Assembly (NCBI RefSeq): GCF_001748225.1
Contig: NZ_BDFE01000017.1
Coordinates: 248,001 to 312,000, forward strand
DNA length: 64,000 nucleotides
Direction of reading: 5' to 3'
Source of the DNA: Desulfoplanes formicivorans
GTDB taxonomy: Bacteria > Desulfobacterota > Desulfovibrionia > Desulfovibrionales > Desulfomicrobiaceae
A program made the position numbers and the translations under genes. The notes below the pieces were generated by a model. That model was not told the DNA's origin, made no database searches, and saw only the letters and a program-made list of their open reading frames with translations. Shown in pieces: positions 24,193 through 41,560 of the stretch; positions within the stretch are counted from its first letter, which is position 1, and the number at the start of each line of letters is the position of its first letter.

Positions 24193-24420
24193 ACTGAGAA
24201 ATATGGATCCATCCGTCCACGATACACCCATAAACGTCCGGGAAAAAGCCCACAAGATTGTTCCCGCTTAAAACACCGATTGCTTCTTGTTGAGGTCAAT
24301 CCGGCGGGAGCACCAAGATGGTGAACCTGCCAGCGGCCAACCGTTTCCTGCAACACATCTCATGCAAGACCTGCTGCACGACCATCAGGAAAATCATTCC
24401 CCATCAGCCCCCGTATATTC

Positions 24421-24563
24421 GCTATCAACCCAGAATTACAATAATTTTTTCTCTTGGTGCTCAAGTTGCTACAAACAGGCATATCGTCACCAAAACGGCA
24501 TTTTTTTGACAGCATTTACAGCACCCACCACGAGGAGCGTTTCATGCGTCTTTGCAAACGGGT
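24421..24563 (+). repeat. Direct repeat: relic of a UDP-glucuronate decarboxylase leader
   Basis: These 143 bases align without gaps to 41561-41703, with 22 mismatches by my count. They include the leader, the CGAGGAG ribosome-binding site and the first seven codons (MRLCKRV here, MHLRKRV there) of the decarboxylase gene at 41684. Homology stops after codon 7, where an IS3-like remnant begins. The other 228 bases from 24193 to 24420 show no gene. Confidence 0.85.
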
Positions 24564-24618
24564 GAGAATGTCGCCGCTTGAGTACGAAAATCGCCAGGTC
24601 GCCCAGCGAGAAGCTTAA
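24561..24618 (+). mobile_element. IS3-family transposase C-terminal remnant
   Basis: Fused in frame to the decarboxylase relic is MSPLEYENRQVAQREA and a stop at 24616-24618. Met-Ser-Pro-Leu-Glu-Tyr-Glu is the usual C-terminal end of IS3-type OrfB transposases (cf. the family pattern Y-x-S-P-x-x-[FY]-E). Only about 16 codons remain, so the element is dead. The match is short and by eye. Confidence 0.45.
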
Positions 24619-24644
24619 CGGGATTTTCACTAGGTTGTTGCAGG

Positions 24645-24760
24645 ATCAAGATTCCAAGGCTGCCGAAACAAGAAGAACTTTATCACCATGATCTACCTGA
24701 TTGTGGCTCCGATTCAGATTTTGGTTGCCACATGAACTCCACACAACACGTCGAACAACC
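24645..24760 (+). mobile_element. Right-end remnant of an ISL3-like element (copy 1)
   Basis: From about 24645 the sequence follows the last codons of the transposase seen at 27957-29297 (NFITMAYLIAAPIQILVAT), here with substitutions (FITMIYLIVAPIQILVAT). It ends in a diverged right inverted repeat at 24735-24760. The left part is missing. The gene that follows, at 24799, starts 39 bases after this end. Confidence 0.75.
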
Positions 24761-24798
24761 TATTATAATTGGATATCATATCAAGAAGGTTATATTAA

Positions 24799-27908: not shown

Positions 27909-27956
27909 TGTTTAAGGTGGCCCCAAAACGCTGGGCAGGTAGAGGCTCCATTAAGT

Positions 27957-29297
27957 GGTTCTTCGACGTTTTGTGTGGAATTGACCGATCGTATCGAGTT
28001 TGGGTAGCCCTCCCCCTCAGGAGGATGATTCATGCTTGCTGAACAAATTTTTGCCTTGGGTCTTGGCCTTACGCGCCGTGGGAAGTTACGAGCCAACGCC
28101 TTGATACTGTCCATACACCAACCAAACTCCACCTGGAGATCGGTGCCGACCGTGGAGCGCTGTACCCGTGTCCGGAGTGTGGAGCCATGTGCAAGGCTCA
28201 TGACTTCAAGGAGTACACGTGGCGGCATCTCAACTTTTTTCAGCACCATTGTTACCTCACCGCCCGAGTCCCAAGGATTAATTGTTCGGAACACGGCATC
28301 CGTCGGGTGGACGTTCCCTGGGCCAGAAAAGGCAGTCGTTTTACCTTGCTCTTTGAGCAGGTGGTCATGAGTCTTGTTCGCGAGATGCCGATCAATGCTG
28401 TTGCTCGTCACGTCGGGGTCACAGACAAACGATTATGGCGTATCGTATACCACTATGTTTCCAAAGCCATTGAGACTCTTGATCTCAAAGATCTCAAGGC
28501 GATCGGGCTGGATGAAACAGCCTCCAAGCGTGGTTATAATTACATCACGGTCTTCATTGATCTGGATTGATCCGACAAACCCGTGATTTTTGCCACTCCA
28601 GGCAAAGGCAAGGAATGCCTGACCAAGTTTTGCGAGTTTATCAGGGCACATAAAGGTCATCCCGAGAATATTGCCGAAGTTGTCTGCGACATGTCCCCTG
28701 CGTTCCTCTCGGCCGTCGAAAAGGAGTTCAAGTCCGCTTCGGTGACGGTCGACTGGTTCCATGTTGTCCAGCTTTTCACCAAGGCCGTCGATGATGTCCG
28801 GAAACTTGAGGGCAGACAGACAAAGCTTCCAGATCACACCCGTTGGGCCGTACTCAAAGGCGCTGAGAAAAAACGCACGCAAAACCAGGAGAATGCTCTT
28901 CTTGAGCTCGCTGAACAGGGCTTTGCTACCGCCAAGGCCTACCGCGTCAAAGAACTCTTACGCTGGATTCGCCGGGCCGAATCAAGGCAGGCTGCCAAGT
29001 GGCGCATTACCCATTTTCTCAAGCATGCAACCGAGTATACCGCGGATTGTCCACTTCTGGAGCCAGTAAGAAATGCCTTGGCCAGTTTTGAGAGGCACAT
29101 GCCACGCATCCTCCATCGCTGGCATTCCCTGCACACCAATGCAAGGCTCGAAGGCTTCAATGGCCTGTTCCAAGCGGCAAGGGCCAGAGCCCGAGGTTAC
29201 CGAAACGTGGAGAACTTTATCACCATGGCCTACCTGATTGCGGCTCCGATTCAGATCCTGGTTGCTACATGAATTCCACACAAAACGTCGAAGAACC
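27957..29297 (+). mobile_element. ISL3-family insertion sequence (copy 2, full length but inactive)
   Basis: A 1341-bp element with perfect 26-bp terminal inverted repeats: left 27957-27982 and right 29272-29297. One transposase gene fills it, broken by a frameshift and a stop. The flanking 8-mers (CATTAAGT left, AAAATTAT right) do not match, so there is no target duplication; the ends were probably joined to new DNA by recombination. The right end lies six bases upstream of the ACP gene. Confidence 0.9.
28032..29272 (+). pseudogene. ISL3 transposase, frameshifted and with an in-frame stop
   Basis: The transposase starts at ATG 28032 (LAEQIFALGLGLT), then needs a frame change near 28072 to continue into the zinc-ribbon domain (ALYPCPECGAMCKAHDFKEY). 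The DDE domain holds LKAIGLDETASKRGYNYITV with the first catalytic Asp, VVCDMSPAFLSAVEKEFKS with the second, and RLEGFNGLFQAARARARGY with the Glu region. A TGA at 28568-28570 interrupts it just after FIDLD; the frame resumes at once and runs to 29272. Two independent lesions make the gene non-functional. Confidence 0.85.
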
Positions 29298-29303
29298 AAA
29301 ATT

Positions 29304-31979: not shown

Positions 31980-32411
31980 ATGTCTTTGACTGTATCGGCA
32001 TCCGTCTACGATGTCTCCCTCATTAAATTCCCAAAGATTCGTGACCCTCGGGGCAATCTGACGTTTATCGAGCAGGAACGGCATATCCCCTTCAAGATAT
32101 CCCGCGTTTACTGGATTTACGATGTCCCCGGCGGCGAGAAACGGGGTGGGCATGCGTTTCGTGAGCAGGAGGAGGTCATCATTGCCCTGTCCGGAAGTTT
32201 TGACGTGCTGTTGGATGACGGCAAAGCTCAAAAAATCGTGCACTTGAACCGGGCATACCATGGGTTGTTTGTCCCCAAAATGATCTGGCGCCGAATGCAG
32301 AACTTTTCTACCAATGCCGTGGCCTATGTTCTGGCGAGCTGCCAGTATGATGAAAATGATTATGTGCGCGATTATGCTCAATACACACGGCTGATGCAGG
32401 AAATGTCATGA
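31980..32411 (+). CDS. fdtA: FdtA/WxcM-like sugar 3,4-ketoisomerase, first copy
   Basis: A 143-residue cupin of the dTDP-4-oxo-6-deoxyglucose 3,4-ketoisomerase family. RDPRGNLTFIEQERHIPF and RVYWIYDVPGGEKRGGHA are typical. The active-site motif usually written His-Ala-His reads His58-Ala-Phe60, so the second of the two histidines considered important in FdtA is lost. The enzyme would make a 3-keto sugar for the aminotransferase encoded 400 bases downstream. Because of the substitution it could be altered in specificity or structural only. Its stop overlaps the next start. Confidence 0.82.
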   Translation: MSLTVSASVYDVSLIKFPKIRDPRGNLTFIEQERHIPFKISRVYWIYDVPGGEKRGGHAFREQEEVIIALSGSFDVLLDDGKAQKIVHLNRAYHGLFVPKMIWRRMQNFSTNAVAYVLASCQYDENDYVRDYAQYTRLMQEMS

Positions 32412-32821
32412 AAACGACAATACATGACTGCAAACTGGTAGAATTGCCGCAAATGTATGACCAACGAGGATCACTTACCCCCATTTCCAATCAGCAGCAG
32501 ATTCCATTTGATATAGTCAGAACCTATTATCTGTACGATGTTCCAGGCGGAGAATCGCGTGGCGGCCATGCCCACAAAGAACTCCAGCAGCTGATCGTTG
32601 CGGTGATGGGGGCTTTTGATGTTGTGGTGGATGACGGACAGGAAACAAAGACCCTCCGTTTGGACCGGGCATATTATGGTCTGTATGTTCCCAAAATGAT
32701 TTGGCGTGAGCTGATTAATTTTTCATCCGGAGCCAACTGCCTTGTTTTGGCCTCTCTTCCGTATGACGAGAATGAATATATCCGAAACTACAATGACTAC
32801 TTGAGGATGAAGGTACAATGA
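32408..32821 (+). CDS. fdtA: FdtA/QdtA-like sugar 3,4-ketoisomerase, second copy
   Basis: A 137-residue paralogue of the preceding protein, similar over its length (LPQMYDQRGSLTPISNQQ, YYLYDVPGGESRGGHAHK). It keeps both histidines, His54 and His56. It probably converts dTDP-4-oxo-6-deoxy-glucose to the 3-oxo isomer, FdtA (galacto) or QdtA (gluco) type; which one cannot be told by eye. Four-base overlaps on both sides show translational coupling with the first copy and the aminotransferase. Confidence 0.88.
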   Translation: MKTTIHDCKLVELPQMYDQRGSLTPISNQQQIPFDIVRTYYLYDVPGGESRGGHAHKELQQLIVAVMGAFDVVVDDGQETKTLRLDRAYYGLYVPKMIWRELINFSSGANCLVLASLPYDENEYIRNYNDYLRMKVQ

Positions 32822-33923
32822 ACGTTCCCTTTCTCAATCTCAAGACCATCAATGCCGCACATCGCGATGAACTGATCCAGGCGGCCACCCGGGTTATTGA
32901 TTCCGGATGGTACATTCGGAGCCAGGAAGTTCAGGCCTTTGAACAGGAATTCGCTGCCTATTGTGGAACCAGATACTGCATCGGCGTGGGCAATGGTCTG
33001 AGCGCCCTCACTCTCACCCTTCGCACCTGGAAAGAACTTGGCAAACCTCAATAGAAGGCGACGAGGTCATTGTCCCGGCCAACACCTATATCGCCACCAT
33101 TCTGACCATCACGGCAAATCGCCTCACCCCGGTTTTGGTTGAACCGGACATTGCTACCTACAATCTTTCCCCCAGCCTGATGCGCCAGGCCATTACCTCC
33201 AGAACCAAGGTTGTCATGCCGGTCCATCTCTATGGACGACTGGCCGAGATGCCGGAGATCACGGCCATTGCCAAAGAACACGACTTGCTGATCCTGGAAG
33301 ACGCAGCTCAGGCCCACGGTGCAAGTTTGCAGGGGCGCAAGGCTGGCAACTGGGGACACGCGGCAGGATTCAGTTTCTATCCTGGAAAAAATCTTGGTGC
33401 CTTGGGCGATGCAGGAGCCGTGACCACCAATGATGAAGAATTGGCAAAAACCATCCGGGCTTTGGGCAACTACGGCAGCCACAAAAAATACGAAAACCTC
33501 TACCAGGGAGTTAACAGCCGTCTTGATGAAATGCAGGCGGCCTTTTTACGGGTAAAGCTGCGCTACCTGGATGAGGAAATCAAGGCCAGACGAACGGTGG
33601 CCCGGGCCTATCTGGAAGGGATTAAGAATCCGCTTGTGAAGTTACCCGCATGGGAAGTAGAAGAGCAGCATGTTTTTCATCTGTTTGTGGTGAGATGTGA
33701 GAGACGGGATGCGTTGCAGGAGTATCTGTGGGAACGTGGGGTGCAGACATTGATTCATTATCCGGTGCCGCCACATAAGCAGGGGGCGTATGGGGAGTGG
33801 AATAATCAACAATATAAGATTTCTGAAAAAATCCATTACAAAGTTTTGAGTTTGCCGATTGGGTCTTTTCTTGATCAATATCTAGTTAAAAATCTAATTA
33901 CTTGTATTAAAGAGTTTAAATAG
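32818..33923 (+). pseudogene. fdtB: DegT/DnrJ/EryC1 sugar aminotransferase (FdtB-like), frameshifted
   Basis: The reading begins at ATG 32818 (NVPFLNLKTINAAHRDEL) and breaks at TAG 33052-33054. It continues one frame over from about 33048 ([20 protein letters not shown]) to 33923. One missing base near 33046-33050 explains it; restoring one joins both halves into a normal aminotransferase of about 368 residues. The PLP lysine lies in [16 protein letters not shown]. It would transfer an amino group to C3 of the dTDP-3-keto-6-deoxy sugar. Nothing else looks decayed, so an assembly error or a very recent mutation is plausible. Confidence 0.8.
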
Positions 33924-33991
33924 TACAGACCGATTAATGTGATTAATTCAGATATTTTCGAATGTATGTTTTCTCTAAAAGGTTTACTGTG

Positions 33992-35224
33992 ATGCTCAAT
34001 AAAAATAACAGAAGATATATAAACAAAATTGCTTTCGTGTGTCATGAAGCTACTATGTTTATTCACTATTCAAATGTATGGAAAAAACTTGAACCAGATA
34101 GTTTTGACATAGTTTTGATAGGTCCATTATTAGAAAATAAAGACAATAATCGCGGCTTTAGACAAAAAGTTATCGAGGAAATCGGAAGCGATATTAACGT
34201 GTTCGAATTACCTGAAATACTTGAAAAGGGTTTGGCTTACAAGCATGTGGTATCTAATCATTGCATGGGAGAAACTCCGATTGAATCAATAAATAACCTG
34301 TATATATTAAAAAATATTCTGATTTCTTATAAAAATTATGCCAAATACTTATATAATAACAAAATTATTGATGATCCTGCGAAAAGAAAAAAATATAACA
34401 CAACCCAATATCCTAGACCACGTGTGTATACTCCCAAGGCTGTGGGTGATAAACAAATAAGATTTATGTACGGTCCGGACATAAGCGATGGGTGGTCTTT
34501 AGGTGCTTGGAATTCAATGTACGACCTTGTCCTCTGTCATGGAGAAGCAGATGCCGAAAAAATACGAACCAAATACAACAAAAAGACCGAAATAATGGGG
34601 TATCCTAGGTACGATAGTTATTTTAGTGATGCTTGTTCACCTGAAAAAGCCAGAAAAGAGTTTGGCTTATCTGAAAATACTCCTGTAATTTATTGGATGC
34701 CAACAGTCGATGCATTTGACGATGATGTATGTTCCATCCCTTTTTACGCTGATTTATTAAGTCGTCAAAAAAAATATACCATAATTGTTCGCCCTCATCC
34801 TATCACATACCGAACGCATCCTCACTTGATAACTTTGCTGGAAGAGCACGGTTATCTTATTGATAGTGACAGTATGAGAGATACCAGCGAAATTTTTAAG
34901 ATTTCTTCGGCTGTTTTGTGCGATCATGGAGGGAGCCCTTTTGGTGCATTTTATCTGCGCAAGAAGCTAATATTTTTGAAAACTCCAAAACATGAAAAAG
35001 CCAATGTTTTCAAAAATTCTTCCAATCAAGAATTAATGACATATTTCCCTATGCTTGACACAAACACTATTGATAACCTTGAATCAGTTATTGAAGATGA
35101 GAATTTATGGGAAGATATCTATTCAAAGTCGCAACCCTTTTATAAAAAAACGTATGGTAACTACTTCGGTCGTTCCGCCGATAAAGCGGCCTCAATACTC
35201 ATGAGGTTAGATGATATTTTATAA
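33992..35224 (+). CDS. CDP-glycerol glycerophosphotransferase-like protein (TagB/TagF fold)
   Basis: A 410-residue GT-B-like protein; the ATG at 33992 has AAAGG upstream, and an in-frame ATG at 33962 is the alternative. The C-terminal half contains YTIIVRPHPITYRTHPHLI, then SSAVLCDHGGSPFGAFYL and RKKLIFLKTP. RPHP and Asp-His-Gly-Gly-Ser are hallmarks of CDP-glycerol phosphotransferases, which move a phospho-alcohol from a CDP donor to a glycan. It precedes the phosphoramidate genes, whose end product is also a cytidine-diphosphate donor, so it might be the transferase; this is inference. AT-rich. Confidence 0.72.
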   Translation: MLNKNNRRYINKIAFVCHEATMFIHYSNVWKKLEPDSFDIVLIGPLLENKDNNRGFRQKVIEEIGSDINVFELPEILEKGLAYKHVVSNHCMGETPIESINNLYILKNILISYKNYAKYLYNNKIIDDPAKRKKYNTTQYPRPRVYTPKAVGDKQIRFMYGPDISDGWSLGAWNSMYDLVLCHGEADAEKIRTKYNKKTEIMGYPRYDSYFSDACSPEKARKEFGLSENTPVIYWMPTVDAFDDDVCSIPFYADLLSRQKKYTIIVRPHPITYRTHPHLITLLEEHGYLIDSDSMRDTSEIFKISSAVLCDHGGSPFGAFYLRKKLIFLKTPKHEKANVFKNSSNQELMTYFPMLDTNTIDNLESVIEDENLWEDIYSKSQPFYKKTYGNYFGRSADKAASILMRLDDIL

Positions 35225-35305: not shown

Positions 35306-37723
35306 ATGAAATCCATTAAACATTCACCATCAAAATCAACGTTCCAGTTTCGATTCTCTTCAAAAGCTGAAACATTAAAAAAAATCAAAGAGTTATCAAA
35401 ATCTATCAATATACCGAAGTTTATTTTTTTTAATATGAAAGAGTGGAGAGAAAAACATGAAGCTATTATAGATAGAATATCTAGCCTATTTCAAGGTGAA
35501 CTGATAGCAATTCGTAGTTCTGCAACATGCGAAGATGGTGCAAAAAATTCTTTTGCAGGTGCATTTACTTCTATTTTAAATGTAGACTCAAACAATAGAT
35601 ATTATTTAAGAGATGCAGTAGACACTGTTTTTAAATCATATCCAGATCAGCACGTAGACAATCAGGTTCTGATTCAGGAAATGGTACGAGACGTTGATGT
35701 TAGTGGTGTCATTTTAACACGTTGTGTTGACGATGGGTCGCCGTATTACGTTCTTAATTATGATGATGAAACAGGAGATACGGAATCCATTACAGGAGGA
35801 AAAGGCGTTCACAAAACAGTTTTAGTGTACCGAAACTATACTCCAGAATATTGTGACTCGAACAGAGTTTTACAAATGCTCGAACTCGCGAAATGTATCG
35901 AATCGCTTTGCGGGTTAATTCCTTTGGATATTGAGTTTGCTCTTGATAAAAAAGGGGTGATGCACCTTTTGCAAGTTCGTCGGGTAAGCACAGCTGGGGT
36001 TTGGCACCCCGATACCGAACATCGCGTTTCGCGTACTATCCCACATATGGAACGTTTTATATCAGACCTTTCAAACCGACGTAAAACTCTTTTTGGTGAT
36101 TATACCCTTTTTGGCAACATGTCCGACTGGAATCCCGCAGAACTTATTGGAGTAATCCCTTCTCCGCTTGCGGCTTCCCTTTTCAGAGCGCTTATATCCG
36201 CACACGCCTGGAGTGAATCAAGAGCTCAAATGGGGTATCGACGAATACCCCATACAGAGCTTATGGTGTTGATCGGCGGGCATGCTTATATTGACATACG
36301 CGCTAGTTTTAATTCTTTTTTGCCTGAAGGTATCCCGAATAAAATTGGGGAGAAGCTGGTTGCCGCATGGCTTCAACGCCTAGCAGACAATCCATCCCTT
36401 CACGATAAAGTTGAATTCGACGTATTACATACCGTATTGGATTTTGAATTTGAAAAAAATTTTTCTCAGAGATATAGTGAAATTTTGAATAACTCTGAAA
36501 AAAAAATATACAAAGACTTACTTCGTACCTTAACGAATAAAGTTTTAGATACATCTCGTAATGGAAGTTTGAACAAAGCTCTTGCAAAAATCGAAAAACT
36601 ATCTGCATTTCAATCACCTGAATATCTTGAATTTCAAACTTCAAGTCCAACCGCATTGATTTCACATATTCAAGCATTGCTGGAGGACTGTCTTTATTAT
36701 GGTACCATACCATTTAGCATTATAGCTCGACATGCTTTTATTGCTGAAACTTTTCTCAGATCTGCCATTTCACGTTGTGCACTGACTGAAAAACGGGTAG
36801 CTGAATTTAAATCATCTTTTCGCACCATCATGGGAGATCTTTCTCGAGATATTCAAAGGGTGTGTCAAGGTCAAATAGACGTGGATGCTTTTCAGGAACA
36901 ATATGGGCATTTACGACCGGGAACTTTTGATATTATGTCTCCATGCTATAGGGATCGTACAGATCTATTTGATAATTGCATGTATTTTGAAAATAAAAAC
37001 GTACATGCAAATTTTATTCTATCAGACATAGAAAAAAAATATATAAATAATCTTTTGCGCGAAATTGGAGTCACCTTTATTGATTCTGAAAGTTTTTTTG
37101 AATATGCTAAAATAGCAATCCAAGGTCGTGAATATGCTAAATTTATTTTCAGTCGTAATTTATCTGCTATTTTGGAATCAATAGCAGATTGGGGTTGTTT
37201 TTACGGCCTTGGAAGAGAAGATCTTTCTCTCTTATCAATCTGTGATATCCTTGACACATGCCATAACTCAATACGAGGAAAAATTACTACAGAATTGATG
37301 TACAAGGTAGATCACGCGAGAATCGATCAATCATTGGCCAGAGTATTCAAACTCAGTTATCTTGTTAGAGGAGTTCGTGATATTCATGTGGTTCCAATCC
37401 ATCGTTCTGAGCCAAATTTTATTACCCAGAAACAAATAGAAAGACCGATCGTTTTTTTAAGTCCTACGACTTTAGATGGTACGTCTATAAATAATTGCAT
37501 TGTATGCATCGAGAATGCAGACCCTGGTTTTGATTGGATATTCACCAAAGGAATTGCCGGATTAATTACAAAATATGGCGGAGCCAACTCGCATATGGCC
37601 ATTCGCTGTGCCGAATTACAATTACCTGCGGCTATTGGTTGTGGAGAAGAGCTCTTTCAAAGGTTAAAACAAGCCCGTAAAATTGACCTCAACTGTGGCA
37701 GCAAAACGATAAGAACTATTTGA
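35306..37723 (+). CDS. L-glutamine kinase-like protein (Cj1418 type; ATP-grasp plus phosphohistidine domain)
   Basis: An 805-residue protein that resembles PEP synthase but lacks the PEP-binding TIM barrel. The N-terminal ATP-grasp half has GELIAIRSSATCEDGAKNSF and PLDIEFALDKKGVMHLLQVR. A long middle part (about 230-670) has no recognised domain. The C-terminal swivelling domain has the phospho-acceptor His763 in GGANSHMAIRCAE. Campylobacter Cj1418 has this architecture and phosphorylates the amide of L-glutamine with ATP. The next three genes are in the families and order of Cj1417, Cj1416 and Cj1415, which supports the same role. ATG 35306 was chosen; the ribosome-binding site is weak. AT-rich. 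Confidence 0.82.
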   Translation: MKSIKHSPSKSTFQFRFSSKAETLKKIKELSKSINIPKFIFFNMKEWREKHEAIIDRISSLFQGELIAIRSSATCEDGAKNSFAGAFTSILNVDSNNRYYLRDAVDTVFKSYPDQHVDNQVLIQEMVRDVDVSGVILTRCVDDGSPYYVLNYDDETGDTESITGGKGVHKTVLVYRNYTPEYCDSNRVLQMLELAKCIESLCGLIPLDIEFALDKKGVMHLLQVRRVSTAGVWHPDTEHRVSRTIPHMERFISDLSNRRKTLFGDYTLFGNMSDWNPAELIGVIPSPLAASLFRALISAHAWSESRAQMGYRRIPHTELMVLIGGHAYIDIRASFNSFLPEGIPNKIGEKLVAAWLQRLADNPSLHDKVEFDVLHTVLDFEFEKNFSQRYSEILNNSEKKIYKDLLRTLTNKVLDTSRNGSLNKALAKIEKLSAFQSPEYLEFQTSSPTALISHIQALLEDCLYYGTIPFSIIARHAFIAETFLRSAISRCALTEKRVAEFKSSFRTIMGDLSRDIQRVCQGQIDVDAFQEQYGHLRPGTFDIMSPCYRDRTDLFDNCMYFENKNVHANFILSDIEKKYINNLLREIGVTFIDSESFFEYAKIAIQGREYAKFIFSRNLSAILESIADWGCFYGLGREDLSLLSICDILDTCHNSIRGKITTELMYKVDHARIDQSLARVFKLSYLVRGVRDIHVVPIHRSEPNFITQKQIERPIVFLSPTTLDGTSINNCIVCIENADPGFDWIFTKGIAGLITKYGGANSHMAIRCAELQLPAAIGCGEELFQRLKQARKIDLNCGSKTIRTI

Positions 37724-37727
37724 GCTT

Positions 37728-38384
37728 ATGAAAAATCTGCGAATTGGATTGTCAATGCGGATAACGGAGGCTCAAAACTATTCTGAACCTCGTGATGCTC
37801 TAGCCCATGATTGGCCTCGTTTTATGCAGCAGGTTTTACCAGAAGCAAATTGGATGCCTCTGCCTAATATAGGAATTAGGATAATTCAGCATGTTCAGGA
37901 TTGGGATTTGAATGGTTTTATTCTAACAGGGGGTAATGATATACATGAATACCCCAAAAGGGATGAAACCGAACTCGCTTTGATCCGATTTGCTTTACAA
38001 AAAAACATACCGATATTTGGCGTGTGTCGTGGCTTTCAGCTTATACTTCATTTCTTTGGTAAAAAAATTTTTCGGTGCCTGACAAAAAAACATGCGGGGA
38101 CGCGCCATGCGATATCTCTGTTGAAGTCCCCTTCTGAGCAAACAGAACAATCACTTATTGTTAATTCATATCATGATAATTGCGCGGAACATGTAAGCTG
38201 TTTTCGTGATCGTGACGCGCTTAAACCGTTTGCGGTAGATGATAACGAGGTAGTGGAAGGTATATATCATGAAAATCATCCTTTAGCGGGGATTATGTGG
38301 CATCCAGAGAGAGAAAATCCTGTCAATGATTATGATCAGATATTGGTCAGAAATTTATTTATCAACTCGGAGAAATATACGTGA
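37728..38384 (+). CDS. Class I glutamine amidotransferase-like hydrolase (gamma-glutamyl-CDP-amidate hydrolase, Cj1417 type)
   Basis: A 218-residue GATase-1 protein. The nucleophile is Cys100 in IFGVCRGFQ and the other triad residues are His192 and Glu194 in MWHPERE. TGGNDIHEYPKRDETE matches the gamma-glutamyl-GABA-hydrolase (PuuD) group. In Campylobacter, Cj1417 cleaves CDP-L-glutamine to glutamate and cytidine diphosphoramidate. It starts four bases after the kinase stop and overlaps the nucleotidyltransferase by four bases. Taken alone it would be annotated as a PuuD-like hydrolase; the context gives the more specific role. Confidence 0.82.
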   Translation: MKNLRIGLSMRITEAQNYSEPRDALAHDWPRFMQQVLPEANWMPLPNIGIRIIQHVQDWDLNGFILTGGNDIHEYPKRDETELALIRFALQKNIPIFGVCRGFQLILHFFGKKIFRCLTKKHAGTRHAISLLKSPSEQTEQSLIVNSYHDNCAEHVSCFRDRDALKPFAVDDNEVVEGIYHENHPLAGIMWHPERENPVNDYDQILVRNLFINSEKYT

Positions 38385-39109
38385 AAGCTATTATTTTGGC
38401 AGCAGGCCGGGGGTCCAGACTTCTCTCCCTGACAGACGATCGTCCTAAGTGTTTGGTTGAGCTAGGCGGCAAGCCATTACTCCATTGGCAAATTGAAGCC
38501 CTTAAAGGGGCGGGTATTGATGATATTTTAGTTGTCCGCGGGTATTGCAAAGAGCAACTTGTTGGTAATTTTGAGACGGCAGAAAATTTAAGATGGAATG
38601 AAACGAACATGGTTACCAGTCTTATGGCCGCCAGAGAGTGGCTACAAACGGAGCCCTGTATTGTTTCTTATTCGGATATTATCTATCCGTCCGATGCAGT
38701 GAAGACGTTGGTTGAATTCGAATCTGAAAGGCTTTCTATTTTATATGATCCAAACTGGTTAAGTCTTTGGAAAAAAAGATTTAGCGACCCATTGAGTGAT
38801 GCCGAAAGCTTTGTAGCACATGACGGTGTACTGACTGATATCGGAAGAACAAACGTGAAACTTTCAGAAATTAAAGGTCAATATATGGGCCTTTTAAAAT
38901 TTACACCTGATGCATCTAGCAGTGTATTTGACCTTTTGGATAAAGATCAAAAATTTTCGGATACATTAGATATGACTACGTTACTCAGATTACTCATCGA
39001 AAAAGGCAAAATCGTTATGGCTGTACCATGGCAAGGAACGTGGTGTGAGGTGGATAGTCAAGAAGACTTGAAGGTAGCTGAAGCCTTGTTTAGGGAGGAA
39101 GATTTATGA
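38381..39109 (+). CDS. Nucleotidyltransferase (CTP:phosphoglutamine cytidylyltransferase, Cj1416 type)
   Basis: A 242-residue nucleotidyltransferase of the LicC/sugar-phosphate type. KAIILAAGRGSRLLSLTDD is the NTP loop; RPKCLVELGGKPLLHWQIEA follows with the signature Lys; SYSDIIYP supplies the metal Asp; TWCEVDSQEDLKVAEAL is the typical end. In the Campylobacter pathway the equivalent enzyme joins CMP from CTP to L-glutamine phosphate. Both ends overlap neighbouring genes by four bases. By sequence alone a phosphocholine or sugar-phosphate cytidylyltransferase is possible. Confidence 0.82.
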   Translation: MKAIILAAGRGSRLLSLTDDRPKCLVELGGKPLLHWQIEALKGAGIDDILVVRGYCKEQLVGNFETAENLRWNETNMVTSLMAAREWLQTEPCIVSYSDIIYPSDAVKTLVEFESERLSILYDPNWLSLWKKRFSDPLSDAESFVAHDGVLTDIGRTNVKLSEIKGQYMGLLKFTPDASSSVFDLLDKDQKFSDTLDMTTLLRLLIEKGKIVMAVPWQGTWCEVDSQEDLKVAEALFREEDL

Positions 39110-39627
39110 TAGTTTGGCTTGTGGGACTATCCGGTTCAGGGAAGACTACCATCGGGCAAGAACTCTATCAAATTTGGAAAAAAAAATCTCCCAATACTGT
39201 TATGCTGGATGGAGATGATGTAAGAAGTATTTTTCAGCATGATACAAAATCGGCTAACTATACTATAGAGGGACGTCTTATCAATGCTAAACGTATGGTG
39301 GAAATATGTGCAATATTGGACAGACAAAAAATAAATGTAATCTGCTGTATACTGTGCATTTTTGACCAACTTATGCTGGAAAACAGGAAAAAGTTTCACA
39401 AATACTTTCAAGTTTATATTGATACTGACATAGAGGTATTGAAGAAACGCGACACTAAAGGTCTATACGGCAGGGCTCTGCGTGGCCAAGAAAAGAACGT
39501 GGTAGGCCTGGATATAAATTTTTCACCACCAAGTAAATCAGACTTGGTGCTCAGCACTGCCCCCGGAGCTCCAGACCCAGAGACTTTGGCCCGACAAATC
39601 CTCAACTCTGCAGGTATTGTGATATGA
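39106..39627 (+). CDS. APS-kinase-like kinase (cytidine diphosphoramidate kinase, Cj1415 type)
   Basis: A 173-residue P-loop kinase with Walker A Gly7-Leu-Ser-Gly-Ser-Gly-Lys-Thr14 and VMLDGDDVRSIFQHD, as in APS kinases. The middle part (TIEGRLINAKRMVEICAIL) differs from the usual APS-binding region. Cj1415 phosphorylates the 3'-hydroxyl of cytidine diphosphoramidate to give the activated donor. Operon position as the fourth gene, with ATGA overlaps, supports that role over true sulfate activation to PAPS. It is very AT-rich. Confidence 0.82.
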   Translation: MIVWLVGLSGSGKTTIGQELYQIWKKKSPNTVMLDGDDVRSIFQHDTKSANYTIEGRLINAKRMVEICAILDRQKINVICCILCIFDQLMLENRKKFHKYFQVYIDTDIEVLKKRDTKGLYGRALRGQEKNVVGLDINFSPPSKSDLVLSTAPGAPDPETLARQILNSAGIVI

Positions 39628-40199
39628 GTACAGAATATTTATATTCCCAAGGTAACCTTCTTGAAGATCGTCATACCTATCAATATAGTCAGTATATGGG
39701 ATATGATTTTCTCAAAAGCTGGAAGGAAAGCCGAAATATGGTAGCTGTTGAATTTGGAACTCCGTTACCTCCTCCTACGCCGCAATACCCATATCAACCT
39801 CTATCTACACCCATTAGGACAACACAAAGGCTTGAAGAACTAATGGCTGGCTTGATGCAAGGAATGTTTGAGGAACTGAGGCAGGAACTTGGAATATGGG
39901 TTAAAAAATTCGAAGTCAGCAAGAGACTGTTTGATACGTATGATAGTGACTTTAAACCCGTTACAAAAGATAAATATGACGACTTAAGCAATTATCTCAG
40001 ATACGCAGAGATCATGGAGTTTGCCTACAGGCAAAATGCAGATCTACCTTACCTGAATGTATTGTTAAAAGTAATCGACACGCTGATTGCGTACAGTAAA
40101 TATCTCCTCCCGGAGAATCAAGCAAGACTGGCTTGGTTGATCAAAAGAGAAATCTATCATGTTGGTGCACTTGCTGATAAAAATGGACTGAAAATATGA
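39624..40199 (+). CDS. Unrecognised protein of the phosphoramidate operon, 191 aa
   Basis: The gene overlaps the upstream kinase and the downstream formyltransferase-like gene by four bases each, so it belongs to the same operon. The protein is soluble and Tyr-rich at its start (STEYLYSQGNLLEDRHTYQY), has a Pro-rich segment (PLPPPTPQYPYQPLSTP) near residues 47-63, then is all-helical to the end. No catalytic motif and no family is recognised. It might be a glycan-transfer accessory or scaffold; this is speculation. Confidence 0.75.
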   Translation: MSTEYLYSQGNLLEDRHTYQYSQYMGYDFLKSWKESRNMVAVEFGTPLPPPTPQYPYQPLSTPIRTTQRLEELMAGLMQGMFEELRQELGIWVKKFEVSKRLFDTYDSDFKPVTKDKYDDLSNYLRYAEIMEFAYRQNADLPYLNVLLKVIDTLIAYSKYLLPENQARLAWLIKREIYHVGALADKNGLKI

Positions 40200-40915
40200 C
40201 ACTTGAAGACACGATAATCATTACAGCTGACACAGCTCGTTCTAAAGCCTACACCCAAGCAATGATTGAGAACGGCATTAAGATTAAAGGAGGCATCTTT
40301 TTTGAAGCTAGCGGCCCCAAAACTGGACAGACAAAAAAGATTCCAGAGAGGGAGTGGCCTGGTTCTCCGGTATATCTTCCTGATCTAAGCCTAAACCTTG
40401 AACAAAGCCTGCATGAAGCTTGTAAAACAGTCAAAACGGTGACAGCAACGCATATCAATGATGCTCCTATATCTGAAGCGATCACAGAGCTAAAACCAGA
40501 ATTAATAATTTATTCCGGTTACGGAAGTCAGATAGTAGGAGAACACCTCATAAACGGTTCAGCACCCTTCCTACACATACATTCTGGGTGGTTGCCGGAT
40601 TTCAGGGGGTCTACAACCACGTATTTTCATTTGCTGGCTACTCGCAATTGCGGTGTATCAGCCATACTTCTGGAAAAAGAAATCGATACAGGACCAATTC
40701 TCGCCAGGAAATCGTACCCCAAACCTCCAAAAAATATTGACATTGATTACTTATACGACTGCGCTATCCGGGCTGATCTCTTATGCCAAGTGCTCCTTCA
40801 CTACGGGAATCATCATGTTTTGCCCCAAGTAATCCCGCAACAACCCGATAAAGGGAATACTTATTATGTAATTCATCCTGTTTTGAAACATATAGCAATT
40901 CTTACTTTGGATTAA
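40196..40915 (+). CDS. Formyltransferase-fold protein, 239 aa
   Basis: A formyltransferase N-terminal-type domain (PF00551): FLHIHSGWLPDFRGSTTTYF contains the catalytic-region His and the Pro-x-x-x-Gly loop, and SAILLEKEIDTGPILARKSY holds the conserved Asp-Thr-Gly. The usual C-terminal OB domain of methionyl-tRNA formyltransferase is absent, as in sugar N-formyltransferases. It is the last gene of the phosphoramidate operon and ends eight bases before the ISL3 copy 3. It may formylate an amino sugar or the transferred group; the substrate is not known. Confidence 0.78.
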   Translation: MTLEDTIIITADTARSKAYTQAMIENGIKIKGGIFFEASGPKTGQTKKIPEREWPGSPVYLPDLSLNLEQSLHEACKTVKTVTATHINDAPISEAITELKPELIIYSGYGSQIVGEHLINGSAPFLHIHSGWLPDFRGSTTTYFHLLATRNCGVSAILLEKEIDTGPILARKSYPKPPKNIDIDYLYDCAIRADLLCQVLLHYGNHHVLPQVIPQQPDKGNTYYVIHPVLKHIAILTLD

Positions 40916-40923
40916 AAAAGGTT

Positions 40924-41514
40924 GGTTCTTCGACGTTTTGTGTGGAATTCATGTAGCAGGATCAGTCGACTGGTTCCATGTTGTCCAGCTTTTCACCAAG
41001 GCCGCCGATGATGTCCGGAAACTTGAGGGCAGACAGACAAAGCTTCCAGATCACACCCGTTGGGCCGTACTCAAAGGCGCTGAGAAAAAACGCACGCAAA
41101 ACCAGGAGAATGCTCTTCTTGAGCTCGTTGAACAGGGCTTTGCTACAGCCAAGGCCTACCGCGTCAAAGAACTTTTACGCTTGATTCGTCGGGCTGAATC
41201 AAGGCAGGCTGCCAAGTGGCGCATTACCCATTTTCTCAAGCATGCAACTGAGTATACCGCTGATTGTCCACTTCTGGAGCCAGTAAGAAATGCCTTGGCC
41301 AGTTTTGAGAGGCACATGCCACGCATCCTCCATCGTTGGCATTCCCTGCACACCAATGCAAGGCTCGAAGGCTTCAATGGCCTGTTCCAAGCGGCAAGGG
41401 CCAGAGCCCGAGGTTACCGAAACGTGGAGAACTTTATCACCATGGCCTACCTGATTGCGGCTCCGATTCAGATCCTGGTTGCTACATGAATTCCACACAA
41501 AACGTCGAAGAACC
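40924..41514 (+). mobile_element. Internally deleted ISL3-like element (copy 3)
   Basis: A 591-bp derivative of the copy at 27957-29297. The segment 40965-41514 matches 28748-29297 without gaps and with few substitutions, and encodes only the C-terminal part of the transposase (stop at 41487-41489). Its left end is not the normal left end: 40924-40958 is an exact 35-base inverted copy of 41480-41514, so both termini are right ends. No 8-bp target duplication is seen. It is inactive on its own. Confidence 0.85.
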
Positions 41515-41560
41515 AATTAAATTTGCAGGGTCACTGCGTTGTGGCTCCACCTTAAAATTT

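Follow-up and report, generated by a model that had tools for sequence, protein, structure and literature searches.

A probable variant of the phosphoramidate donor pathway with a putative folate-type tailoring module in a low-GC island of Desulfoplanes formicivorans

In Campylobacter jejuni, the enzymes Cj1415-Cj1418 make cytidine diphosphate (CDP)-phosphoramidate 3'-phosphate from glutamine, ATP and cytidine triphosphate (CTP), and the enzyme for the methyl group of the O-methyl phosphoramidate (MeOPN) is still to be assigned in the literature consulted, as are Cj1419 and Cj1420 (PMC11800397). Another source gives the same gene set, cj1415-cj1418, and adds that phages of C. jejuni use MeOPN as a receptor (PMC3907429). 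Outside Campylobacter, phosphoramide groups that lack the methyl occur in Xanthomonas campestris and Shewanella MR-4, as part of the lipopolysaccharide (LPS) (PMC8042644, PMC3210612, PMC3907429). A 2019 review presents the modification as known from Campylobacter only (PMC6429109), and a 2022 review the glutamine kinase as specific to C. jejuni (PMC9561416). Here we analyzed a stretch of 64,000 nucleotides (the window) from Desulfoplanes formicivorans (assembly GCF_001748225.1, contig NZ_BDFE01000017.1, positions 248,001 to 312,000), which contains an operon with the same four enzyme types as the C. jejuni MeOPN pathway, in the same order and with the catalytic residues kept. On our analysis, it is fairly likely that this operon, which lies in a low-GC (guanine-cytosine) island beside ISL3 elements, encodes a variant of the phosphoramidate pathway in which a folate-type tailoring module replaces methylation.

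The four core genes, named K, H, N and A, are all located on the + strand where the original prediction had placed them. The first, K (35306..37723), encodes a protein of 805 amino acids from its ATG, although the mechanical open reading frame (ORF) begins earlier, at TTG 35267. It is an L-glutamine kinase-like protein with the predicted role of Cj1418, which we take to be a member of the PRK05849/NF004508 model family. K reaches 889.6 bits against NF004508 (cut-off 501), while phosphoenolpyruvate (PEP) synthase models give at most 53 bits, and the catalytic His763 of the mobile domain is invariant in 12 homologues. H (37728..38384) is a hydrolase of the class I amidotransferase fold with the predicted role of Cj1417; its best NCBIfam model is NF045546 (gamma-glutamyl-CDP-amidate hydrolase), with 116 bits versus 44 bits for PuuD. 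This model is matched by all 22 aligned H homologues, and the triad Cys100/His192/Glu194 is invariant in homologues. N (38381..39109, GTG start) is a nucleotidyltransferase which may act as CTP:phosphoglutamine cytidylyltransferase, the Cj1416 role. It matches NTP_transf_3 at 63.8 bits, shows a conserved N-terminal LAAGRGSR loop and has as its nearest solved relative LicC (PDB: 1jyk), a CTP:phosphocholine cytidylyltransferase (E 3.3e-14).

A (39106..39627) is an APS-kinase-like protein (APS, adenosine 5'-phosphosulfate) with the predicted role of Cj1415, cytidine diphosphoramidate 3'-kinase. It shares the fold and the conserved P-loop of APS kinase (CysC), but it fails the cut-off of the APS-kinase equivalog TIGR00455 (99.8 bits, cut-off 138.7) and passes that of PRK05541 (150.3 bits, cut-off 127). 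The possibility that A is the only APS kinase of the host was rejected, since a separate APS kinase domain elsewhere in the genome scores better (193 bits). A third, divergent APS-kinase-like domain of 65 bits is also found at G000:C20:219720-220211 (L125).

Likeness to the Campylobacter proteins was judged through family models and conserved gene order rather than by pairwise alignment with Cj1415-Cj1418. In the alignment check that the original prediction had proposed, the pathway models beat PEP synthase, PuuD and CysC for K, H and A, respectively; for N, the nearest solved relative is LicC, one of the alternatives that the check had named. The kinase, hydrolase, nucleotidyltransferase and APS-kinase-like order, which had been equated with that of Cj1418-Cj1415, was likewise borne out by four adjacent genes, as were the key residues announced for each protein, which are kept in the homologues. 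The assignment of K-H-N-A to a donor pathway is therefore likely from the sequences, and its description as of Campylobacter type holds for the family models of K, H and A and for the gene order; it falls short in the score of H, discussed below, and in the length of the operon. The host also carries dsrA (622.8 bits, cut-off 392.85), which supports the earlier label of putative sulfate reducer.

Relatives of K were sought in genome contigs, where at least 558 were found and the best 80 loci were kept; further samples were 348 genomes of the class of the host, 399 Pseudomonas genomes, a plasmid collection and IMG/VR. Identity among the best 80 is 35-49%, and these loci belong to Pseudomonadota, Thermodesulfobacteriota, Verrucomicrobiota, Omnitrophota, Acidobacteriota, one cyanobacterium, one haloarchaeon and others. 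K was above the cut-off in 40/348 genomes of the class and present in 36/399 Pseudomonas genomes, and 14 plasmid records showed a match covering at least 80% of it. No relative of K was found in the IMG/VR viral contigs, and a viral origin was rejected on this basis. At the 80 loci, N is present in 73 and H in 72, mostly directly after K, and the three genes are found together at about 70, in many phyla. The pathway thus occurs outside Campylobacter, as originally predicted, and is far commoner than had been implied. Several loci encode a fusion protein of about 1000 amino acids in which a second nucleotidyltransferase domain precedes the kinase (L183, L191, L194, L195, L197, L104, L105, L109, L116 and L118-L120, with L119 belonging to the haloarchaeon).

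The window operon does not end at A. Two further genes follow on the + strand, U191 (39624..40199) and FT239 (40196..40915), and H/N, N/A, A/U191 and U191/FT239 share 4 bp each, while a gap of 4 bp lies between K and H. The four genes were originally described as an overlapping set: all four are present and H/N and N/A do overlap, but K/H do not, and the set is incomplete without U191 and FT239. The operon is one tight unit of six genes (K, H, N, A, U191 and FT239), and probably of seven if GPT420, which ends 81 bp before the start of K, is counted.

U191 is an uncharacterized protein without any match in Pfam or NCBIfam. Its predicted structure is all-helical, with a mean predicted local distance difference test (pLDDT) score of 92, and the model found no match at E <= 0.001 in a fold search of PDB. 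It is present in 10/348 genomes of the class, all ten with K (hypergeometric p ~1e-10), and in 11/399 Pseudomonas genomes, again all with K. FT239 shows the formyltransferase fold: it scores 40.2 bits against PF00551 (cut-off 26.1) and its Foldseek matches are the formyltransferases ArnA (E 2.8e-11) and Fmt. With the 10-formyl-tetrahydrofolate formyltransferases (ArnA, Fmt and sugar N-formyltransferases) it shares, in addition to the fold, two residues of the catalytic motif, namely its second His (His129) and its Asp (Asp164); it differs in a His in place of the motif Asn, in a conserved HPxLKH motif in the C-terminal part of the family, and in its confinement here to a phosphoramidate gene cluster. 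A-U-FT is the gene order in most loci that contain these genes (U/FT loci), and at several of them U and FT, or A and U, are merged into single ORFs (e.g., L055, L063, L064, L065, L092, L118 and L148). The A-U191-FT239 module appears to be undescribed in the literature searched.

At other loci, K-H-N-A is adjoined by MT10 (e.g., L041:6859-7608 and L062:13879-14646), a family of S-adenosylmethionine (SAM) methyltransferases (PF08241). In the class, MT10 was found at E <= 1e-60 in 27/348 genomes, all 27 with K. The genome of D. formicivorans shows no MT10 match at this threshold. Among the 80 kinase loci, U/FT is present at 36, MT10 at 19 and both at none (Fisher p 7e-9 for the 62 loci with A), and no cluster with both modules was found in any of the loci examined, including those of the class and of Pseudomonas. 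One genome of the class (G253) has both modules, but in two separate operons: one with A-U-FT (L148), the other with two methyltransferases and running into the contig end inside K (L178). In Pseudomonas, 20 kinase loci gave no strong match to U191: 12 of them have MT10, five combine a kinase-nucleotidyltransferase fusion with a divergent ORF in which U and FT are fused, and the other three have neither module. In the five fusion loci (L183, L191, L194, L195 and L197) there is no A gene, a GPT gene adjoins N, and the fused U-FT ORF is nearby. L187, L192 and L198 show K-H-N with neither module, and in L187 a neighbouring gene (L187:4975-5592) resembles by eye a CDP-alcohol phosphotransferase, which may put the CDP-amidate donor to a different use.

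These sequence distributions suggest two mutually exclusive tailoring modules on one donor core, U191/FT239 and MT10, and because of this exclusivity we suggest that U191/FT239 replace methylation; MT10 is a candidate for the methyl step of MeOPN. A lineage artefact behind the exclusivity was also considered. On the kinase tree the labels do form clusters, yet they switch at least six times, four of them forced by well-supported branches, and the exclusivity is repeated in the class and Pseudomonas loci. The K of the window lies in a well-supported clade of 13 rows which includes eight MT10 loci and in which the window is the sole U/FT member; its position among MT10-type kinases indicates that modules were swapped. 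By blastp, the K, H and N of the window are closest to those of L160 (66, 51, and 67% identity, respectively), while for its A, U and FT the best matches come from other loci (L172, L101, L092 and L114). An A-U-FT unit thus seems to have joined a core of another type.

GPT420 (33962..35224, + strand) encodes a CDP-glycerol glycerophosphotransferase-like protein (PF04464, 37.7 bits, cut-off 22.1) with invariant HP and DxGG motifs; a profile search against PDB gave no match. Homologues are located directly upstream of A at many U/FT-type loci, and among the 80 loci one homologue cluster is present at 14 of the U/FT type and at none with MT10. Because the CDP-glycerol glycerophosphotransferase family moves a phosphoryl group from a CDP donor, GPT420 is a candidate for the phosphoramidate transferase. 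Glycosyltransferase, FdtA, DegT and epimerase genes surround the operon, with glycosyltransferases, an FdtA pair and DegT upstream, and sugar-biosynthesis families are repeatedly present at kinase loci. The FdtA pair encodes FdtA/WxcM-like sugar ketoisomerases (31980..32411 and 32408..32821, + strand; PF05523, 180.9 and 178.4 bits, respectively), and it is followed by a DegT/DnrJ-type sugar aminotransferase (32818..33923, + strand) which matches PF01041 at 289.7 bits from profile position 63. The DegT reading frame is broken near 33050, with the N-terminal part in another frame; either the gene is disrupted or the sequence contains an error. Genes for a beta-ketoacyl-ACP synthase (KAS) III-like protein and a short-chain dehydrogenase/reductase (SDR) are also found upstream of the operon.

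The window has a GC content of 0.55 outside 24.4-41.7 kb, but of 0.42 within this segment and 0.39 within the operon itself. This low-GC glycan island shows an ISL3-family element on its left side (27956..29299; DDE_Tnp_ISL3, 160.8 bits) with 27-bp terminal inverted repeats (repeat I4), and an internally shortened one right after FT239 (40922..41516) with 37-bp perfect terminal inverted repeats (I1, D1). The shortened copy is 97% identical to the left element across 300 nt and its transposase part scores 106 bits. A third ISL3-related piece flanks the island at 24417-24771. Transfer of the island as a unit is plausible; no matching 8-bp target duplication was found at the outer flanks of the two elements, so that composite transposition is not shown.

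From the gene set, gene order, catalytic residues, exclusive co-occurrence and module exchange, all observed directly, we infer the following reactions and product. K, H, N and A would carry out the steps of the C. jejuni chemistry, as their families and gene order suggest. U191 and FT239 would then act with A on the donor or its product, replacing the methyltransferase of other clusters, probably in a folate-dependent one-carbon (formyl) step. GPT420, whose relatives take CDP-linked donors and set CMP (cytidine monophosphate) free, is the likely enzyme for moving the group onto a glycan; this glycan would be made by the FdtA, DegT and glycosyltransferase genes nearby and displayed on the surface. 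Compared with the C. jejuni MeOPN pathway, the corresponding family models are the best ones for the window K, H and A, but the genome has no MT10 match at the threshold used, the operon goes on into U191 and FT239, and a GPT-type candidate transferase is present. The A-U-FT module in place of a methyltransferase module argues against a plain copy of the MeOPN pathway. The LPS of Xanthomonas and Shewanella offers a chemical precedent for phosphoramidate without O-methyl outside Campylobacter. A more speculative reading, which we hold to be less likely than not, is that a folate-type branch (A-U191-FT239) stands beside a SAM-methyl branch (MT10), the two being interchangeable on one core, and that the former places a formyl-derived group on the phosphoramidate or nucleotide donor to give a new phosphorus-nitrogen surface tag.

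Several observations weigh against the pathway variant with a folate-type module. The score of H lies below the NF045546 equivalog cut-off of 250, which makes it a homologue and not a certified equivalog. In profile alignment, FT239 departs from the catalytic Asn-x-His...Asp motif: it reads His127-x-His129 and Asp164, and all 20 FT239 homologues likewise carry His where the motif has Asn, which could mean that the protein is no working formyltransferase. Both modules are missing from four of the 40 K-bearing genomes of the class, in three cases on contigs <6 kb. Furthermore, FdtA-like genes occur among the 80 loci only in U/FT loci, and the FdtA and DegT genes of the window fit an amino sugar, which could be the target of a formyltransferase in place of the phosphoramidate. 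The main rival explanation starts from here: the donor pathway would work as described, and FT239, whose fold is nearest to ArnA, Fmt and sugar N-formyltransferases, would N-formylate the FdtA/DegT amino sugar with no connection to the phosphoramidate, U191 being its partner or a separate factor. It is favoured by the FdtA-like cluster, which is present at 13 U/FT loci and absent from all MT10 loci, but 13 are a minority of the 36 U/FT loci, U191 is confined to kinase genomes, the A-U and U-FT fusions link the module to the nucleotide kinase, and the substitution of the motif Asn also speaks against ordinary sugar formylation. We regard this explanation as unlikely.

The low score of H can also be read as a sign that K, H, N and A work on a related substrate, with a CDP-activated group other than the plain amidate; N has no specific family model, and the kinase family is very diverse, as the identities among the best 80 loci show. 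This is quite improbable, since all four enzyme types of the characterized pathway co-occur with their catalytic residues kept and NF045546 remains the top NCBIfam model for H. That the product is a diffusible phosphoramidate metabolite with no role in decorating a surface glycan would suit the KAS III-like and SDR genes and the apparent CDP-alcohol phosphotransferase neighbour of some Pseudomonas K-H-N loci, such as L187; the sugar genes around the operon, and their recurrence at kinase loci, make it very unlikely. Annotated gene by gene, the core would read as an ordinary PEP synthase, PuuD, sugar nucleotidyltransferase and CysC that are adjacent by chance, but the family scores contradict this and the repetition of K-H-N across phyla places the adjacency far from chance, so that this last explanation was rejected as having a negligible probability.

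The phosphoramidate pathway variant with a folate-type module remains the reading we prefer. The genes of the K pathway are present in hundreds of genomes of many phyla, contrary to the Campylobacter-only picture of the reviews cited above. MT10, found in the class searched only in kinase genomes, is a testable candidate for the missing MeOPN methylase, and U191/FT239 would be the marker of a second tailoring branch beside it. Given the phage receptor role of MeOPN, phosphoramidate variants may matter for phage-host contact beyond C. jejuni.

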